The notes below the pieces were generated by a model. It was given only the letters and a program-made list of their open reading frames with translations. It made no database searches and was not told the origin of the DNA. Position numbers and translations under genes: made by a program. Of a stretch of 33,179 nucleotides of DNA, positions 3,543 to 24,413 are shown in pieces (position 1 is the stretch's first letter; the number at the start of each line of letters is the position of its first letter). This DNA comes from a virus, in the IMG/VR virus record IMGVR_UViG_3300029309_000166, positions 1-33,179 of that record. One strand, given 5' to 3'.

Positions 3543-4383
3543 AACCTGACATTATAATTGATAAATCATTTTCATTTATGTTTTCTGTGATATAACCAGA
3601 ACAACGACCATGTTTTAAATAATATTTCCATTTTGCAAATGCTTGTTTATAAGCATTGCGACCCGATTCAATCATTTTTTCGTCAAGGGAAAACAATTGA
3701 ATGTCTGCAAACGGAATTCGTGAACCGTCACTATGTTCAACAATTTCTGATTCTATTGCAATAAATCTAAAATTTTCAGGCGGGACGCCTAAATAATCAG
3801 AATAAACAACCGCTTGTAAATGCCAATGATATTGATAACATTGTGAACGGAATTTATAAGGGTTTGTTGATTGCGTTGTTTTTATATCTGAAATAAATTT
3901 TTTGTCAAAATTAAAACAATCGGGACGCACTTTAAAGTTGTTTCCGTCAGCATAAACATAATAGGAATGTTCTTTTTTGCCTTCTAAATAATCTAAAATG
4001 TATTGGTTATAATAAAAACCGGATTCGTCTTTTTCATATAACACACGCTTTATTTCTTCAATCCTCAACATGTCGTCTTCGCTAATCATGGTTTTTCCCC
4101 TTGACAATTCGATTTGTTGTTGATATAACATTTTCCCTTCTTTTGAACGTCGGTCAACTTTTTTTGTAACAAAGATTTCTTTGTCAAATAATTCTGGTTC
4201 TAAAATTGCCGTGTGAACCGCAGTTCCAAAATTCATTGACGCAGTAGGTTTAAACCTTTGCGCCAAAAAATGCTTTACAGTTGTTGAGTATATTTTTTTT
4301 AATACACTTGACGAAATATGATTTCGTTCTTCATGATAAGATTCGTTTGATTCTACTTTTTCAATGATTCTTTCTATTTTCAT
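3529..4383 (-). CDS. RecE-like PD-(D/E)XK exonuclease
   Basis: The protein resembles the exodeoxyribonuclease VIII/RecE-like family (DUF3799). It has the early helix motif GTAVHTAILEP (His57), Glu138 before a KKEHSYYV strand, then KVRPDC (Asp155) and SDIKTT (Asp166, Lys168), followed by YQYHWHLQAVVYSDYLG with the usual Gln-Tyr helix. It probably resects double-stranded DNA 5' to 3' to expose single strands for the ERF annealase encoded two genes upstream. Together with ERF and the SSB it forms a complete phage single-strand annealing system. A 78-base gap with a strong hairpin separates it from the SSB gene. Confidence 0.88.
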   Translation of the reverse strand: MKIERIIEKVESNESYHEERNHISSSVLKKIYSTTVKHFLAQRFKPTASMNFGTAVHTAILEPELFDKEIFVTKKVDRRSKEGKMLYQQQIELSRGKTMISEDDMLRIEEIKRVLYEKDESGFYYNQYILDYLEGKKEHSYYVYADGNNFKVRPDCFNFDKKFISDIKTTQSTNPYKFRSQCYQYHWHLQAVVYSDYLGVPPENFRFIAIESEIVEHSDGSRIPFADIQLFSLDEKMIESGRNAYKQAFAKWKYYLKHGRCSGYITENINENDLSIIMSGYGKN

Positions 4384-4399
4384 TCTTATTGGTTTTAAA

Positions 4400-4455
4400 A
4401 TAAGACGGGGAAGTAAGTTTGTGGATTTGTTTCCTGAATGATTTCCCCGCCTTAT
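4400..4455 (-). other. Hairpin between SSB and exonuclease genes
   Basis: Bases 4400-4412 and 4443-4455 form a 12-bp stem (ATAAG and CGGGGAA arms) broken by one A/C mismatch, around a loop of 30 bases. On the minus strand it lies after the SSB stop and before the exonuclease start. Only a weak T-rich stretch follows. It may be a leaky terminator, an RNA stabiliser that raises SSB over exonuclease expression, or a protein-binding site. G/C-rich pairing is unusual in such A/T-rich DNA. Confidence 0.6.
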
Positions 4456-4461
4456 TAATTA

Positions 4462-4809
4462 TTAAAATGGTAAATCGTCATCACCTTGCGCAACCTTTGT
4501 TTCTTTTTGTGGTTGAACAAAATCAGATTCACCGTTGTCAGCAATGATTGACCAACCTTTTATGTTGGCGAACCATTTCATATTTCCCGTTTTTTTGTCT
4601 TCGTAACTTTTTGAAAATACATTTACGCCAACAGAAACTTTTTGACCTTCAGCGAAATCATCTAATTTCGCGCAACCGTCGTTGATAAACTCAACATAAG
4701 TTTCGTTATTGTATTTGTCTTCGGTTTGTAATAATACACCCCTTTTTTTAAACGTGTCCGTTACTTGAACAACGGGTTCAATTGTAATAATTGTTCCTTT
4801 TACATACAT
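4462..4809 (-). CDS. Single-stranded DNA-binding protein, DUF3127-type
   Basis: This 115-residue protein has the pattern of the OB-fold DUF3127 family common in Bacteroidota phages. An N-terminal strand (KGTIITIEPVVQVTDTFKKR) is followed by ETYVEF, a GQKVSVGVNVFSKSYEDKKTG segment and KWFANIKGWSI. The C-terminus is acidic and ends DDDLPF, like the partner-binding tail of bacterial SSB. It would coat single strands made by the exonuclease and at the replication fork. It lies directly after the ERF gene with a 5-base gap and ahead of the exonuclease. Confidence 0.85.
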   Translation of the reverse strand: MYVKGTIITIEPVVQVTDTFKKRGVLLQTEDKYNNETYVEFINDGCAKLDDFAEGQKVSVGVNVFSKSYEDKKTGNMKWFANIKGWSIIADNGESDFVQPQKETKVAQGDDDLPF

Positions 4810-15964: not shown

Positions 15965-16326
15965 TATTTATAAGTCCAAATAACCTTTTTTGGTTTTTCG
16001 TCATCAATATCAATGTGGATAAATGAATTTGCAACACCGATTCTTGTAATACCTAATTGAAAACAACACTTTAAAAAATGAAATCTGTCTTGTGAATTTG
16101 TGATTGACACGTCAACCGCCAAACCTTTCATGTGTGATGAATCTTTAACGCCACCGATTTTTTTATTGTGTTTTTCTGTTCTATAACCAGAATTTATTTT
16201 CATAGGTTTTCCAAATCTGTCGCGTAATTCGTCAAGTATTTTTAAAAATGCTGGGTTCATTTTTGACCCAGAACCTTTTTTGTCTGGCGAATCAAATTCC
16301 GAAAGTGTAAACCATTTTAAATTCAT
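15964..16326 (-). CDS. M15-family peptidase, endolysin
   Basis: This 120-residue enzyme has the zinc-binding arrangement of the peptidase M15 D-Ala-D-Ala carboxypeptidase/L,D-peptidase fold: SSHMKGLAVDV (His65, Asp72) and FIHIDID (His104). The substrate-side motif KINSGYRTEKHNKKIGG is also typical of M15_3 phage lysins. No signal peptide is seen, so release by the adjacent holin is expected. It would cleave peptide stems of the thin peptidoglycan. It overlaps the outer-membrane-like gene upstream by 4 bases and the holin downstream by one. Confidence 0.92.
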   Translation of the reverse strand: MNLKWFTLSEFDSPDKKGSGSKMNPAFLKILDELRDRFGKPMKINSGYRTEKHNKKIGGVKDSSHMKGLAVDVSITNSQDRFHFLKCCFQLGITRIGVANSFIHIDIDDEKPKKVIWTYK

Positions 16327-17402
16327 AATTTATAATTAAGACCAACTTTCAGGTAAGACAATCTTTTGTCCCAAAATTTGGTCAGTTCATATTCTGCAAA
16401 TATACCAATTTTGCGCGACACGTCCCAACCGGTGTTCAATCCGACGTTATAATCTAACCAATCTTTTTTGTCAACGTAAAGTTCATAACTGTAATTATGG
16501 TCACCGATAACGTGTTCATGATAAGGCATTACGTTAAACCAAGAATGTAAATGAAATTTATCGCGATAGTGATAGAACGAACCACCGACGACAAAAGAAA
16601 GCGTTCCCAATGTTCCAATTTTATCAAGTTCCCGTTTGTTAAATTCGTTGACGATTGATTGATAAATGTTTCTTCTAAAGTCCGCGTCAGTATCGGCGAC
16701 CCTTTCGCCTTCAGGATTTAACCAATACCAATCAAAGTTGTCCAATTGACCGTCATTGTCATAATCTATTCCGTAATAATAATCAACAAATCCTTCAGAA
16801 TATGCCAAGTCCCACCAATTATTATTTTCTAAATATTCGTCAATTGGTAAATAACCAAATGGTTTGTGTGTTCTTAAATTAAGACCCGCCGACAATGATA
16901 ATTTTTTTATTGGAACTCTGAATCTTAAATCGGCACTTTTATAATTTAAATTTATTAAACCGTTGTTTTGTAACTCTAATTTTGTTGACCAATATTTGCC
17001 AGAATATCGGACAAAATATCTTTCATTTTTATATTCTCTGTTCTGTTGTTTTCCCTTACTGTATTGAAATAAATATTCTAAACCTTTAATTGAAGAACCG
17101 TTCGCATTTAAAGACAATTTTTCATTTCCTGAATAATATTTAGATTCTTTAAATTCATAATCCCAACGTGCAATTTTTCTGATTCCAAAAGTCACCAAAT
17201 AATCATTTGAAATTTCTGGCGAAACATTTATTAAGTCACCGCCTTGTGTAACGAAATAACGTTCCGGTTCAAACAATGGTGACGATTCTGAATATGAACC
17301 AAAAACGGTTGAATATTTTAAAAACTTTTTGACAAAATTGTCTTGACCATTTACGTTTGCGCTAATTAAAAAAACGCAAATTAACATTAATATTTTTTTC
17401 AT
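16323..17402 (-). CDS. Secreted outer-membrane beta-barrel-like protein (359 aa)
   Basis: A signal peptide is clear: MKKILMLICVFLISANVNG, then Gln-Asp. The mature protein is rich in alternating hydrophobic/aromatic strands (KGLEYLFQYSKGK, RYFVRYSGKYWSTKLELQN, LSLSAGLNLRT, IGIFAEYELTKFW, SYLKVGLNYKL). The C-terminal strand suggests an outer-membrane beta-barrel or a periplasmic beta-sandwich. An Asp-rich loop IDYDNDGQLDNFDWYW could bind calcium. It is encoded in the lysis operon directly before the endolysin, so it may aid outer-membrane disruption, block the receptor against superinfection, or alter the host envelope. No precise family is recognised. Confidence 0.6.
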   Translation of the reverse strand: MKKILMLICVFLISANVNGQDNFVKKFLKYSTVFGSYSESSPLFEPERYFVTQGGDLINVSPEISNDYLVTFGIRKIARWDYEFKESKYYSGNEKLSLNANGSSIKGLEYLFQYSKGKQQNREYKNERYFVRYSGKYWSTKLELQNNGLINLNYKSADLRFRVPIKKLSLSAGLNLRTHKPFGYLPIDEYLENNNWWDLAYSEGFVDYYYGIDYDNDGQLDNFDWYWLNPEGERVADTDADFRRNIYQSIVNEFNKRELDKIGTLGTLSFVVGGSFYHYRDKFHLHSWFNVMPYHEHVIGDHNYSYELYVDKKDWLDYNVGLNTGWDVSRKIGIFAEYELTKFWDKRLSYLKVGLNYKL

Positions 17403-17750: not shown

Positions 17751-18023
17751 TTAATTTTTCATATCATAAATCCTGACTTCTAATTTTTCTAATGTTTCTT
17801 TTATTTCTTTTACGTCTTCTTGTGTGGTCATAATTGCTTCACGAATTAATTTGTCTTTTAATTCATATTCTGTTTTTGATACTTCAGCAATGGGAAGTTC
17901 TTTTGCGTCTTTTATATCGCTTTGAATTGTTGCATACATCAACGTCATTGAAACGCAGAAAGTGACAACAATCACGATTGTTTTTAAATCTAGTGTTAAT
18001 TTTGTTGATTCGTTTACTTCCAT
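17751..18023 (-). CDS. Membrane-anchored coiled-coil protein (90 aa)
   Basis: I chose the ATG at 18023 (MEVNEST); an ATG three codons earlier is also possible. A single membrane segment (TIVIVVTFCVSMTLMYATI, about 16-36) is followed by a long charged region with heptad spacing (LIREAIMTTQEDVKEIKETLEKLEVRIYDMKN), suggesting an oligomeric coiled coil on the periplasmic or cytoplasmic face. The second gene of the lysis operon, it could be an antiholin, a spanin-like linker or a second holin. The architecture is clear; the role is inferred from context. Confidence 0.65.
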   Translation of the reverse strand: MEVNESTKLTLDLKTIVIVVTFCVSMTLMYATIQSDIKDAKELPIAEVSKTEYELKDKLIREAIMTTQEDVKEIKETLEKLEVRIYDMKN

Positions 18024-18151
18024 TTGCAACATTTCGCATGTAAATAATCTTCTTTATAAACTCGACATTTACAACAAATTTTCATTTTGTTTAAAAGTGT
18101 GTTCCAACGCCAAATCAAACCGAATTTAATAATTTCAAGAATTCTTTTCAT
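18014..18151 (-). CDS. Small zinc-ribbon-like protein (45 aa)
   Basis: An ATG at 18151 opens a 45-codon frame ending at 18014, overlapping the next gene's ATG by 10 bases. The N-terminal half is basic and aromatic (KRILEIIKFGLIWRW). The C-terminal half has CCKC (26-29) and HAKCC (39, 41-42), giving a possible CxxC...HxxC metal site. It is the first gene behind a promoter and only 4 bases follow the -7 element, implying a leaderless or near-leaderless message. It opens the lysis operon; function is unknown. Confidence 0.65.
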   Translation of the reverse strand: MKRILEIIKFGLIWRWNTLLNKMKICCKCRVYKEDYLHAKCCKWK

Positions 18152-18187: not shown

Positions 18188-18216
18188 CAAAAAAAAACCC
18201 CCTAATAAAAGGGGGT
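18188..18216 (-). terminator. Rho-independent terminator after the structured RNA
   Basis: Minus-strand ACCCCC (18216-18211), a loop of eight bases and GGGGG (18202-18198) are followed by a run of T (complement of the A-run 18189-18197). It closes the structured-RNA unit and insulates the lysis operon promoter just downstream. Confidence 0.9.
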
Positions 18217-18659
18217 ATATTAAAACAAATAAAAGTTCAAGGCGCGTCATTAGGTTAATATAAAACTGCAACACTCAATTTTTATAACCTCGTCGTTGTT
18301 GCCGACTTCCCAATAAATCAGTTATTCACGCTCATTATTCTACTCCAACGCTTTAATGAAAGTTTTTGAGATATGCTTTGCGTTCCCACGCTTTTTTCAA
18401 CCTCGCTTGGCAACACCTTTTTGTCATTGTCGTTGGATTAAAAAATCAAATAATGAATTCTTTTTTTTTAAACCTTCCGCGTCGTAACCTTTTGACTACA
18501 CCCCTAGAGGCGGGGGGATTCGAACCCCCACTACGTTATCCTGTTCCTCAATTGTTTTTGCAAACCCTATAATTAAAATCTCACCTTTAATCAAGGTTTG
18601 TATTGACCAAGTTTTAAACTTTTATTTGTATTTCAATGAACGTTTGTAATTAATAATTA
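18190..18659 (-). ncRNA. Structured RNA with circularly permuted tRNA/tmRNA-like elbow
   Basis: This stretch lacks a convincing gene but has its own promoter (18665-18695) and terminator. On the minus strand a T-arm GGGGG-TTCGAAT-CCCCC (18529-18513) is followed at once by CGCCTCT and AGGGGTG. These pair as a 7-bp acceptor stem with a G3:U70 wobble, the alanine identity element used by tRNA-Ala and tmRNA. Next come TA and a D-arm GTC-AAAAGGTTAC-GAC (18496-18481) with U8, A14, G18G19 and A21 in place. The 3' half thus precedes the 5' half. The RNA ends pair over 15 bp (18226-18240 with 18614-18628, one G:U). A 12-bp hairpin lies at 18559-18600, and GCGT-GGGA-ACGC is also visible. Two-piece tmRNA genes are permuted this way. 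Against it: a single A at the junction leaves no separate discriminator and CCA, and no typical ALAA tag is found. A GOLLD/ROOL-like giant RNA or an attachment-site remnant are alternatives. Confidence 0.6.
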
Positions 18660-18664
18660 CACGG

Positions 18665-18695
18665 CTAAATTAAAACAATTTTTTAATATACCAAA
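18665..18695 (-). promoter_or_regulatory. Early-type promoter of the structured RNA
   Basis: Minus-strand TTTG (18695-18692), a 19-base spacer starting GTATATTAAAAAATTG and TAATTTAG (18672-18665) match the extended pattern found at 5650, 23297, 23902 and 31516. Transcription would begin near 18659, about 130 bases before the T-arm. No frame follows, so the product is most likely an RNA. Confidence 0.65.
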
Positions 18696-18724: not shown

Positions 18725-19648
18725 TCAATTTATTTCTTCAACAACGTTTGTAACAGAGATAATTGCGCGGAAATAATAATGGTCTTCGTCCGCGTCTTGG
18801 AAGTATTTGACCGCAATATTTGTGATTTCAGTATTGTTTATATTATTAAAATCAGTCGTAAAATTATTATTTTGTTGACGAAACCAAGTGTTTAAATTTA
18901 CTTTTAAAGCGTAAGTTATTTGTCCAACAATATTATTTAAAACAAGTTCCCCGCCACCCGAACCAATTACACGGTCAACAACTTCGATTTTTGTGACCAC
19001 TTCATTAATTGGGTTTTGTTGATTATTAAGTGTTTCTTCTTGTGTGTCTGAATAAATATGAATAAAAGGAAAAACGGGTTTTGGAATAACTCGGTTGTAA
19101 ATCCTTAAAGGTTTTATCATGTTAGGGTCAACTTTGTGCAATTGAATATTGTCAATAAAAAAACCATTTGTCGCAGACGTTGTTGAATAGATAGCAAAAT
19201 TTTGAACATAACTTCCGCCCAAAGGAATCTTTAATAAAACTGCGTTATAACCTTCTTCAATCAATCGTCCGTTTGGCGCGTCAAAGGTTAAATAATTATT
19301 ATTCCCAAATTCATTGACAACGTCTTTGTTTATATTTGTTGGATTTATAAACGCTAAACCGTTTGTTTGAAGATTTTCAACTTTGAAAGATAAAACATAA
19401 TATTGTCCTTTAGTAATAAAATTTTGAAAAAATTGGTCTTCAGGTCTAATCATGCCTTCTTGACTGTCTGCATAAAAAAAAGCACCTCGACCAGCAACAA
19501 AAGAAAAATCACCCGTTGCAACCCAATTATTAGTTGGGTCAATAATTCCGCTATCCTCAATTAAATTATCTGAAACAAATTTCCAAATCGGACTTTGATT
19601 TATAGCGGTCAAAAGTCCGCGTCTGACGTATTGTATTATTCCCCTCAT
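18725..19648 (-). CDS. Tail terminator protein with inserted jelly-roll domain (307 aa)
   Basis: The two ends look like one small tail terminator protein. MRGIIQYVRRGLLTAIN (1-17) and RIYNRVIPKPVFPFIHIYSD, TEVVTKIEVVDRVIGSGGGEL-like segments (182-235) and a C-terminal beta region together make about 145 residues, the usual length. Residues about 19-178 interrupt it with a carbohydrate-binding-like module (NLIEDSGIIDPTNNWVATGD, KGQYYVLSFKVENLQ, GGSYVQNFAIY, GFFIDNIQL). The GxxIDNxxL ending is characteristic of CBM_4_9-like jelly rolls. The protein would cap the tail tube and join it to the head, with the insert displayed outward. It overlaps the gp10-like gene by 4 bases. Confidence 0.75.
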   Translation of the reverse strand: MRGIIQYVRRGLLTAINQSPIWKFVSDNLIEDSGIIDPTNNWVATGDFSFVAGRGAFFYADSQEGMIRPEDQFFQNFITKGQYYVLSFKVENLQTNGLAFINPTNINKDVVNEFGNNNYLTFDAPNGRLIEEGYNAVLLKIPLGGSYVQNFAIYSTTSATNGFFIDNIQLHKVDPNMIKPLRIYNRVIPKPVFPFIHIYSDTQEETLNNQQNPINEVVTKIEVVDRVIGSGGGELVLNNIVGQITYALKVNLNTWFRQQNNNFTTDFNNINNTEITNIAVKYFQDADEDHYYFRAIISVTNVVEEIN

Positions 19649-23881: not shown

Positions 23882-23901
23882 TTTTTAAAAATTTGATTTT
23901 G

Positions 23902-23933
23902 CTAACTTAAAAAAACTTTTTCTAATTACCAAA
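23902..23933 (-). promoter_or_regulatory. Early-type promoter of the accessory cassette
   Basis: Minus-strand TTTG (23933-23930), a 20-base spacer starting GTAATTAGAAAAAG and TAAGTTAG (23909-23902). The -7 element differs from TAnnTTTG by one base. Its arrangement below the curved element B mirrors the promoter at 5650-5681 below element A. Confidence 0.6.
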
Positions 23934-24014
23934 TTTTTTTTTCTAATTGAAAATAATTTATTGTTTTTTGCAAAAAATATATTTTAAAAATAAACTAAAT
24001 TTTATTAAAAATCG

Positions 24015-24182
24015 TACGAAGGAAAATTGCGTTTAATGAACTATCTCAAAAAAGTAATACTAGTAATCCATAAAGGGGGTAAAGTGCGGGAAATCGCTTA
24101 AAAATGCCCTTAAACGGCATGTTTGATTTTATTAAAAAACGTTAAAAAAAGGCAAAAAAAAAGCAAAAAAATTGTAAAAAAA
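24015..24182. promoter_or_regulatory. Non-coding element, copy B: 14-mer, palindrome and phased A-tracts
   Basis: The 14-mer TACGAAGGAAAATT starts at 24015, the palindrome TACTAGTA is at 24058-24065 and ATCCATAAAGGGG starts at 24066, exactly 51 bases from the 14-mer as in copy A. From 24072 to 24182 about ten A-tracts recur close to every 10-11 bases, implying strong intrinsic bending. The region 23882-24413 has no convincing gene. A 28-codon hydrophobic frame (24192-24278, minus) is too weak to call. Confidence 0.6.
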
Positions 24183-24278
24183 CAAGCGTTTTTAAATCAA
24201 AAAGGTTCGATAAGATTCTTTTGTTAAGTTGATTGACAACGAAAATATAAAGAAAAATACCAAACCTTTTCTAGTCAT

Positions 24279-24326
24279 AACAGCCGTTCGGAACAGCCAC
24301 AAAAGAACAAGTTCCGACCCAAGTTC
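24279..24326. repeat. Cluster of short direct and inverted repeats
   Basis: AACAGCC occurs at 24279-24285 and 24292-24298. AAGTTC occurs at 24309-24314 and 24321-24326. GAAC-AA-GTTC (24305-24314) is an inverted repeat. The cluster adjoins the curved element B and could be binding sites for a phage or host DNA-binding protein. Confidence 0.45.
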
Positions 24327-24361
24327 TTTACAAATGACGTGTTAAAGATACAAAAAAAAAT

Positions 24362-24392
24362 ATAAAAAAAAGGGGGTAAAAAACCCCCTTTT
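24362..24392 (-). terminator. Terminator after the major capsid gene
   Basis: AAGGGGGT and ACCCCCTT (24370-24377, 24383-24390) form an 8-bp stem with a 5-base loop. It has A-runs on the plus strand to the left, so the minus transcript ends in a T-run. It lies 24 bases after the capsid stop. Confidence 0.92.
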
Positions 24393-24413
24393 AATTAACA
24401 ATAAAAAAATTGT

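Follow-up and report, generated by a model that had tools for sequence, protein, structure and literature searches.

Locus and putative RNA gene

The window, the whole stretch of 33,179 nucleotides analyzed here (IMG/VR record IMGVR_UViG_3300029309_000166), represents a small tailed phage, probably of a Bacteroidota host. The ends of the record overlap by about 100 bp (positions 1 to 104 and the last ~103 bases, with one indel), with a primase/helicase gene spanning the overlap, and the genome of ~33.1 kb is therefore probably complete; it is probably also circularly permuted, although classed as linear. Between a neck/tail-completion gene and a zinc-ribbon-like open reading frame (ORF), the minus strand has a gene-free stretch of ~570 nt, and within it positions 18662 to 18190 look like a stand-alone RNA gene, judged by the signals at both borders:

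18725 to 19648, minus strand: upstream neighbor, neck/tail-completion gene, with its C-terminal part homologous to relatives
18665 to 18695, minus strand: promoter-like element TTTG-19-TAATTTAG
18190 to 18662, minus strand: putative RNA gene of ~470 nt, free of ORFs, with promoter-like and terminator signals
18190 to 18216, minus strand: intrinsic terminator ACCCCCU-UUUAUU-AGGGGGU, followed by a T-run
18014 to 18151, minus strand: downstream neighbor, 45-residue zinc-ribbon-like ORF, 64% identical in the related record L013

The element at 18695 to 18665 is presumably a Bacteroidota-type promoter, and the window stretch that carries it matches intergenic DNA that lies 3' of the capsid gene in relatives. 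The RNA limits of 18190 to 18659, proposed earlier in a sequence-only reading of this DNA, agree with this element and the terminator. The zinc-ribbon-like ORF is preceded by a promoter-like sequence of its own (TAAATTTG), so that a separate RNA gene is likelier than a leader. A similar promoter-like element is found at 23933 to 23902, in a non-coding stretch of ~530 nt (23882 to 24413) located 3' of the capsid gene of the window, which may hold another RNA.

A permuted tRNA-like module

All elements listed by the sequence-only reading (T-arm, acceptor strands, TA, and D-arm) are present in the minus-strand sequence, and their order is circularly permuted, running from the T-arm through the acceptor hairpin to the D-arm:

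18513 to 18529, minus strand: T-arm of 5 bp, GGGGG-TTCGAAT-CCCCC, with the loop UUCGAAU
18499 to 18512, minus strand: capped acceptor hairpin CGCCU-CUAG-GGGUG
18497 to 18498, minus strand: linker UA, equivalent to tRNA positions 8 and 9 and conserved in the family alignment
18481 to 18496, minus strand: D-arm GTC-AAAAGGTTAC-GAC, with 3 bp, an A.C mismatch as the fourth pair, and A14, G18G19, and A21 in place
18475 to 18538, minus strand: complete tRNA-like domain, matched by the family model R1 (see below), with a weak closing stem

The T-stem pairs in 5/5 positions, the acceptor in 5, the D-stem in 3/4, and the closing stem in 3/5. The acceptor strands CGCCTCT and AGGGGTG (18512 to 18499) are contiguous, without a spacer. 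Both strands of the 7-bp acceptor helix proposed earlier are thus there, but since they touch, seven pairs are impossible in the uncut strand, and the intact RNA can form either five acceptor pairs with a CUAG cap or six around a loop of 2 nt. In the uncut RNA, the G3:U70 pair, which had been read as the alanine identity pair, is loop-adjacent, and with U-G at this place in 9/36 related sequences, it does not qualify as a conserved feature of identity. The C-UA-G cap is also found in the loci L100, L117, and L121.

A descriptor of the T-arm, acceptor hairpin, and D-arm has one match in the window. In order-1 Markov sequence it matches 25 times per 7.3e8 bases on both strands, giving an expectation of 0.0023 per window, an optimistic figure, as the descriptor had been tailored to this locus; with this proviso, a chance origin of the module was rejected.

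Relation to the YrlA-type Y RNAs

This permuted order of arms is the hallmark of the tRNA-like domain in YrlA, a bacterial Y RNA known as a circularly permuted tRNA mimic with a crystal structure (PDB ID 6CU1) (PMC11472068; PMC8394870). The basal stem of YrlA holds Ro60/Rsr, and its tRNA-like domain binds PNPase, and Y RNA tRNA-like domains are modified by DusA and TruB (PMC8394870; PMC8058203).

ARAGORN does not match the window, and Rfam yields nothing at gathering scores. In the covariance-model check suggested in the sequence-only reading, no model reached its gathering score, and the tmRNA models (tmRNA_permuted, 17.3 bits; tmRNA, 12.7 bits) matched only around the T-arm; the top match at a lax threshold, YrlA (22.1 bits versus a gathering score of 69), aligned in register across the T-arm, acceptor hairpin, and D-arm. 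The E value of this match is 0.034 over 4227 families, which by arithmetic corresponds to ~4e-4 for YrlA alone over the whole window. The other YrlA-like RNAs found in this analysis are likewise under the Rfam gathering threshold, at 28.7 to 51.5 bits. For GOLLD and ROOL, there was no Rfam match at the gathering score, nor up to an E value of 10 over the region.

The window RNA shares with YrlA (RF02553) the T-arm, the capped acceptor hairpin, the UA linker, the D-arm, and the lack of an anticodon arm, and folding prediction suggests that a terminal stem may be a further common feature. Unlike YrlA, it has a weak closing stem and no recognizable Ro60-binding motif, and there is no Ro60 gene in the phage genome: neither a TROVE match nor a phrog_850 protein was found in the phage record, so that a Ro60 of the phage's own was dismissed. 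With ~470 nt, it is also about four times longer than known Y RNAs, which are defined by a length of 90 to 150 nt and a layout of terminal stem plus tRNA-like domain (PMC8394870). The domain in the window is a poor member of its family, as seen from the closing stem (3/5), the D-stem (3/4), and the Rfam score (22 versus 69). The Y-RNA-type identity of the module is nevertheless well supported, and the elements in their order, together with the YrlA alignment, bear out the earlier description, which was of a phage-encoded structured RNA resembling a circularly permuted tRNA.

The domain family

Pattern scans found the permuted domain in IMG/VR records, for example, L100, L098/L104, and L002, and in Bacteroidota genomes; it is present in at least 25 phage records. 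We built a covariance model, R1, from eight such domains, leaving the window out. R1 scores 39.0 bits (E = 3.5e-11) on the window, where the second-best place reaches 7.3 bits; the score is partly inflated, as most training loci were fetched by patterns modeled on the window. Single pattern matches without the fold (L118 and L122) score at most 17.1 bits, and hence about 20 bits of the R1 score come from structure. Junctions between neighboring tRNAs match R1 too, with up to ~41 bits in one set and more in another.

In an alignment of 36 distinct sequences, 18/20 pairs are changed on both sides and 92.9% of the cells are paired, counts that lean towards the model because the alignment was fitted to it, a few rows being tRNA junctions. 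The covariation score is 0.762, compared with 0.205 for shuffled alignments and 0.07 to 0.19 for slid partners.

L002, L007, L008, and L009 carry a compact permuted tRNA-like domain (e.g., L002, 2296 to 2360) with the perfect closing stem GGCCA/UGGCC. It is flanked by the terminase and by a surface-lipoprotein-like gene, the product of which has, in our impression, an archaeal (DPANN-like) look. In the Chryseolinea-type loci L112, L114, L115, L123, and L125, tRNA halves in ordinary order enclose an inner permuted domain, resembling two interlocked tRNAs.

Predicted scaffold around the module

The module is embedded in a larger predicted scaffold, which is probably closed by a long stem joining both ends of the RNA:

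18645 to 18661, minus strand: predicted 5'-end hairpin UGUAAUU-AUU-AAUUACA, pairing probability 0.88
18614 to 18637, minus strand: 5' strand of the putative terminal stem, AUUGAAAUACAAAUAAAAGUUUAA, pairing probability 0.83 to 0.96
18561 to 18600, minus strand: predicted hairpin CAAACCUU/AGGGUUUG with inner GAUUAAAG/UUUUAAUU, pairing probability 0.87 to 0.94
18332 to 18456, minus strand: predicted 3' insert with the long-range helices UCAUUAUUU/GAAUAAUGA and UCCAACG/CGUUGGA (pairing probability 0.61 to 0.85 for both) and the hairpin GCGUGGGAACGC
18219 to 18240, minus strand: 3' strand of the putative terminal stem, UUGAACUUUUAUUUGUUUUAAU

The predicted terminal stem has ~22 AU-rich pairs and beats only 98.3% of Markov shuffles (p = 0.017), a modest gain over chance, and the fold of the entire window RNA is only marginally better than that of shuffled sequences (z = -1.5). 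In the fetched phage relatives, blastn detected no counterpart of the entire RNA, and none was recognized among the matches listed when viral and genome contigs were scanned with patterns, so that the scaffold is without covariation support. A distant blastn search against phage records matched nothing but short fragments of tRNA-Gly and of Bacteroides phages, and the 307-residue neighbor used as a query gave no relatives.

The slot in related phages

None of the relatives in which the slot is visible (~30 to 70% protein identity) has the RNA at this place. In L013 the slot holds a 63-residue lipoprotein-like ORF instead, in L355 and L399 only a terminator and a promoter, and in L372 and L373 a different small RNA-like element; in many fetched relatives, the neck gene almost abuts the next gene. 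Running R1 on 60 of the loci fetched with the 359-residue neighbor revealed no stand-alone domain, the best scores being at most 25 bits and mostly at tRNA genes. Among these phages, the RNA is found in a single lineage but not in the related ones, and it is an accessory insertion into a slot whose content varies.

The element of L372 (1340 to 1560) and L373 (4740 to 4960) reads GUAAUCCU...AGGAUUAC and lies behind a promoter-like box, TATATTTG. The neck-protein homologue of the window (18725 to 19648) has an N-terminal extension of ~160 residues which is missing from most relatives, with L372 and L373 matching over a longer stretch. Another protein of the window, at 16323 to 17402, is a conserved tail-module protein with a signal-peptide-like start and without a PHROG or phage-record match; we read it as having the look of an outer-membrane barrel.

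Genomic company of the domain

A Ro60-like protein (phrog_850) is encoded in 17/28 domain-bearing phage records, compared with 2/28 controls, which were domain-free records from the same kinds of scan (Fisher p = 4e-5); a TROVE match is found in 13/28 of the records with the domain. In L100, a YrlA-like RNA is located directly behind the phrog_850 Ro60-like gene. Downstream of this first Y RNA, L100 contains a second permuted-tRNA-like unit (ACAGGUUCGAUCCCUGU and the hairpins that follow, 4250 to 4653).

The compact domains of Bacteroidota fall into two classes. Class A comprises domains beside TROVE, classic Y RNAs that often occur several in tandem; these RNAs show a UACUUC element, and some phage Y RNAs show CAGCAA. 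Class B domains are located beside slipin/Band-7 genes together with RtcB or with a T4-type RNA ligase and polynucleotide kinase (Rnl/Pnkp), without TROVE, and the usual layout is two tandem domains within a long intergenic stretch. Since the domain recurs beside Ro60, RtcB, slipin, and Rnl/Pnkp in Bacteroidota, the module belongs to RNA-repair islands. On class B RNAs, Rfam gives solely sub-threshold YrlA and tRNA matches, and the literature searched, a set outside which the main Y RNA papers lie, contains no description of them.

Class B loci, with the RNA in the intergenic stretch before slipin, include L165, L166, L175, L176, L178, L180, L183, L186, L188, L111, L113, L117, and L121, among others. 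Their RNAs have a GUUUCUGUAUAGC hairpin, often an anticodon-arm-like hairpin, and a 3' element AUACCG, and a WYL regulator is found nearby. L166 is a tRNA-rich island with more than 15 tRNAs in 9 kb around slipin and the tandem tRNA-like-domain RNA.

Comparing the scaffold of the window by eye with class A (TROVE-linked) and class B (slipin-linked) RNAs revealed nothing in common beyond the tRNA-like domain, and the Ro60-linked elements UACUUC and CAGCAA are absent upstream of the domain in the window RNA. The Ro60/Y RNA pair of the L100 phage has the same module as the window and a near-identical acceptor hairpin (CTCCTCTAGGGGAG versus CGCCTCTAGGGGTG), but its RNA is compact and directly behind the Ro60-like gene, whereas the window RNA is long and alone. 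The slipin/RtcB-linked RNAs of L175, L176, L186, and L188, among others, resemble the window RNA in being long RNA-like stretches with a YrlA-type module and in the likely host phylum; they differ in having two tandem modules, the conserved GUUUCUGUAUAGC and AUACCG elements, and adjacent repair genes, none of which were seen in the window. The nearest parallel is a phage RNA in L274, of ~300 nt with one internal domain and a long terminal stem (p about 0.001 versus shuffles) in a record in which no Ro60 gene was found. It belongs to a different phage and shows no sequence similarity to the window outside the domain.

Possible mode of action and alternative explanations

We consider it reasonably probable, taking identity and general mode together, that the locus encodes a stand-alone phage RNA in which the Y-RNA module, left unprocessed, mimics the tRNA elbow or serves as an elbow decoy. 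The RNA would stay uncut rather than be made into a tRNA, because it has neither a spacer nor a tail to give an acceptor end; the unprocessed tRNA mimic that had been named as the alternative in the sequence-only reading is the option favored by this lack of a spacer or CCA for a free 3' end. Contacts between the D-loop and T-loop would fold the module into a tRNA elbow, which may function as the effector domains of Y RNAs do. Lacking an anticodon arm, the module would imitate only the elbow and the acceptor/T-stem side of a tRNA. The RNA may thereby bind elbow-recognizing host proteins, such as PNPase (alone or together with host Ro60), enzymes that modify tRNAs, or components of the RtcB/slipin RNA repair of the host, which would be tethered or occupied during infection. 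PNPase in the RYPER complex, TruB, and DusA read this side of tRNA (PMC8394870) and are therefore candidate targets, and a role as a competitive inhibitor has been proposed for the YrlA domain (PMC7790460). Because the RNA gene is missing from close relatives, it may have been gained by this virus as a means to engage host machinery for tRNA handling or RNA repair.

Three readings would take the arm order differently. A permuted two-piece tmRNA (RF04321), or a remnant of one, has the same permuted order of its tRNA part and a G-U pair in the acceptor. It is largely refuted, and we give it hardly any weight: three-frame translation of the sense strand detected no coding frame and no tag frame with a resume codon in the window RNA, the RNA has no spacer, CCA, or free ends, its D-arm is canonical, its G-U pair is not conserved, and the Rfam tmRNA models are far below threshold and confined to the surroundings of the T-arm. 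Processing of a permuted tRNA gene via a circular intermediate is equally hard to credit at a locus with no anticodon loop or anticodon stem halves, a weak closing stem, and contiguous acceptor strands, and to our knowledge bacteria do not process such genes, even though tRNA genes with a circular permutation are known (PMC3978253). The module could also be a functionless relic of two adjacent tRNA genes whose outer halves have decayed, considering that tRNA-tRNA junctions share the arm order and match R1. We regard this as improbable: the spacer-free pairing between the acceptor strands would not be expected of two different tRNAs, the CUAG cap is common to Y-like RNAs, the RNA has its own promoter-like element and terminator, and the genome of the window contains no tRNA genes.

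Two further explanations overlap with the elbow mimic that we prefer. The RNA might be a canonical Y RNA in disguise, with the terminal stem binding the host Ro60 (Rsr) and the domain tethering PNPase, which would result in a phage-modified RYPER. The layout of a terminal stem plus a tRNA-like domain matches that of Y RNAs (PMC8394870), more than half of the domain-bearing phage records have their own Ro60-like gene, and TROVE genes adjoin such RNAs in some Bacteroidota, but the length, the missing UACUUC and CAGCAA elements, and the lack of TROVE and phrog_850 in the phage make this rather unlikely. Since the phage is without Ro60 and the RNA without a recognizable Ro60-binding motif, we slightly prefer occupation of, or competition for, elbow-binding proteins to a canonical Ro60-Y RNA complex. 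Alternatively, the elbow mimic might serve counter-defense by absorbing host defenses that cleave tRNAs or sense tRNA damage, as suggested by the recurrence of the domain next to RNA-repair genes, by the competitive inhibition proposed for the YrlA domain (PMC7790460), and by the accessory nature of the RNA, inserted in a slot that varies between relatives. An RNA without an anticodon arm cannot, however, decoy an anticodon-reading nuclease, nor does it offer a free CCA end, and we hold this explanation to be doubtful as well. More speculatively, the window RNA and possibly that of L274 might form a new class of large phage RNAs, with a Y-RNA module but no Ro60, that act as counter-defense RNAs by occupying the elbow-binding proteins of host tRNA-cleavage or RNA-repair systems; the tandem-module RNAs of class B would then be the host-side counterpart. 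We see only a modest chance for this proposal.

Implications

The module itself is already known, and the long stand-alone phage RNA that carries it without Ro60 is a new variation on it; the RNAs of class B, next to slipin/RtcB, may be a more general find than the window RNA. The tRNA mimics of Y RNAs have chiefly been described as short RNAs that accompany Ro60. For the elbow mimic proposed here, function is inferred, and the window RNA provides a concrete, testable phage gene for the function of the domain, a question that stands even for YrlA. If the proposal is true, then the mimic would be, beyond an accessory of Ro60, a portable part of RNA repair and of the conflict between phages and their hosts, a view based on the window RNA together with the slipin/RtcB islands that lack Ro60.
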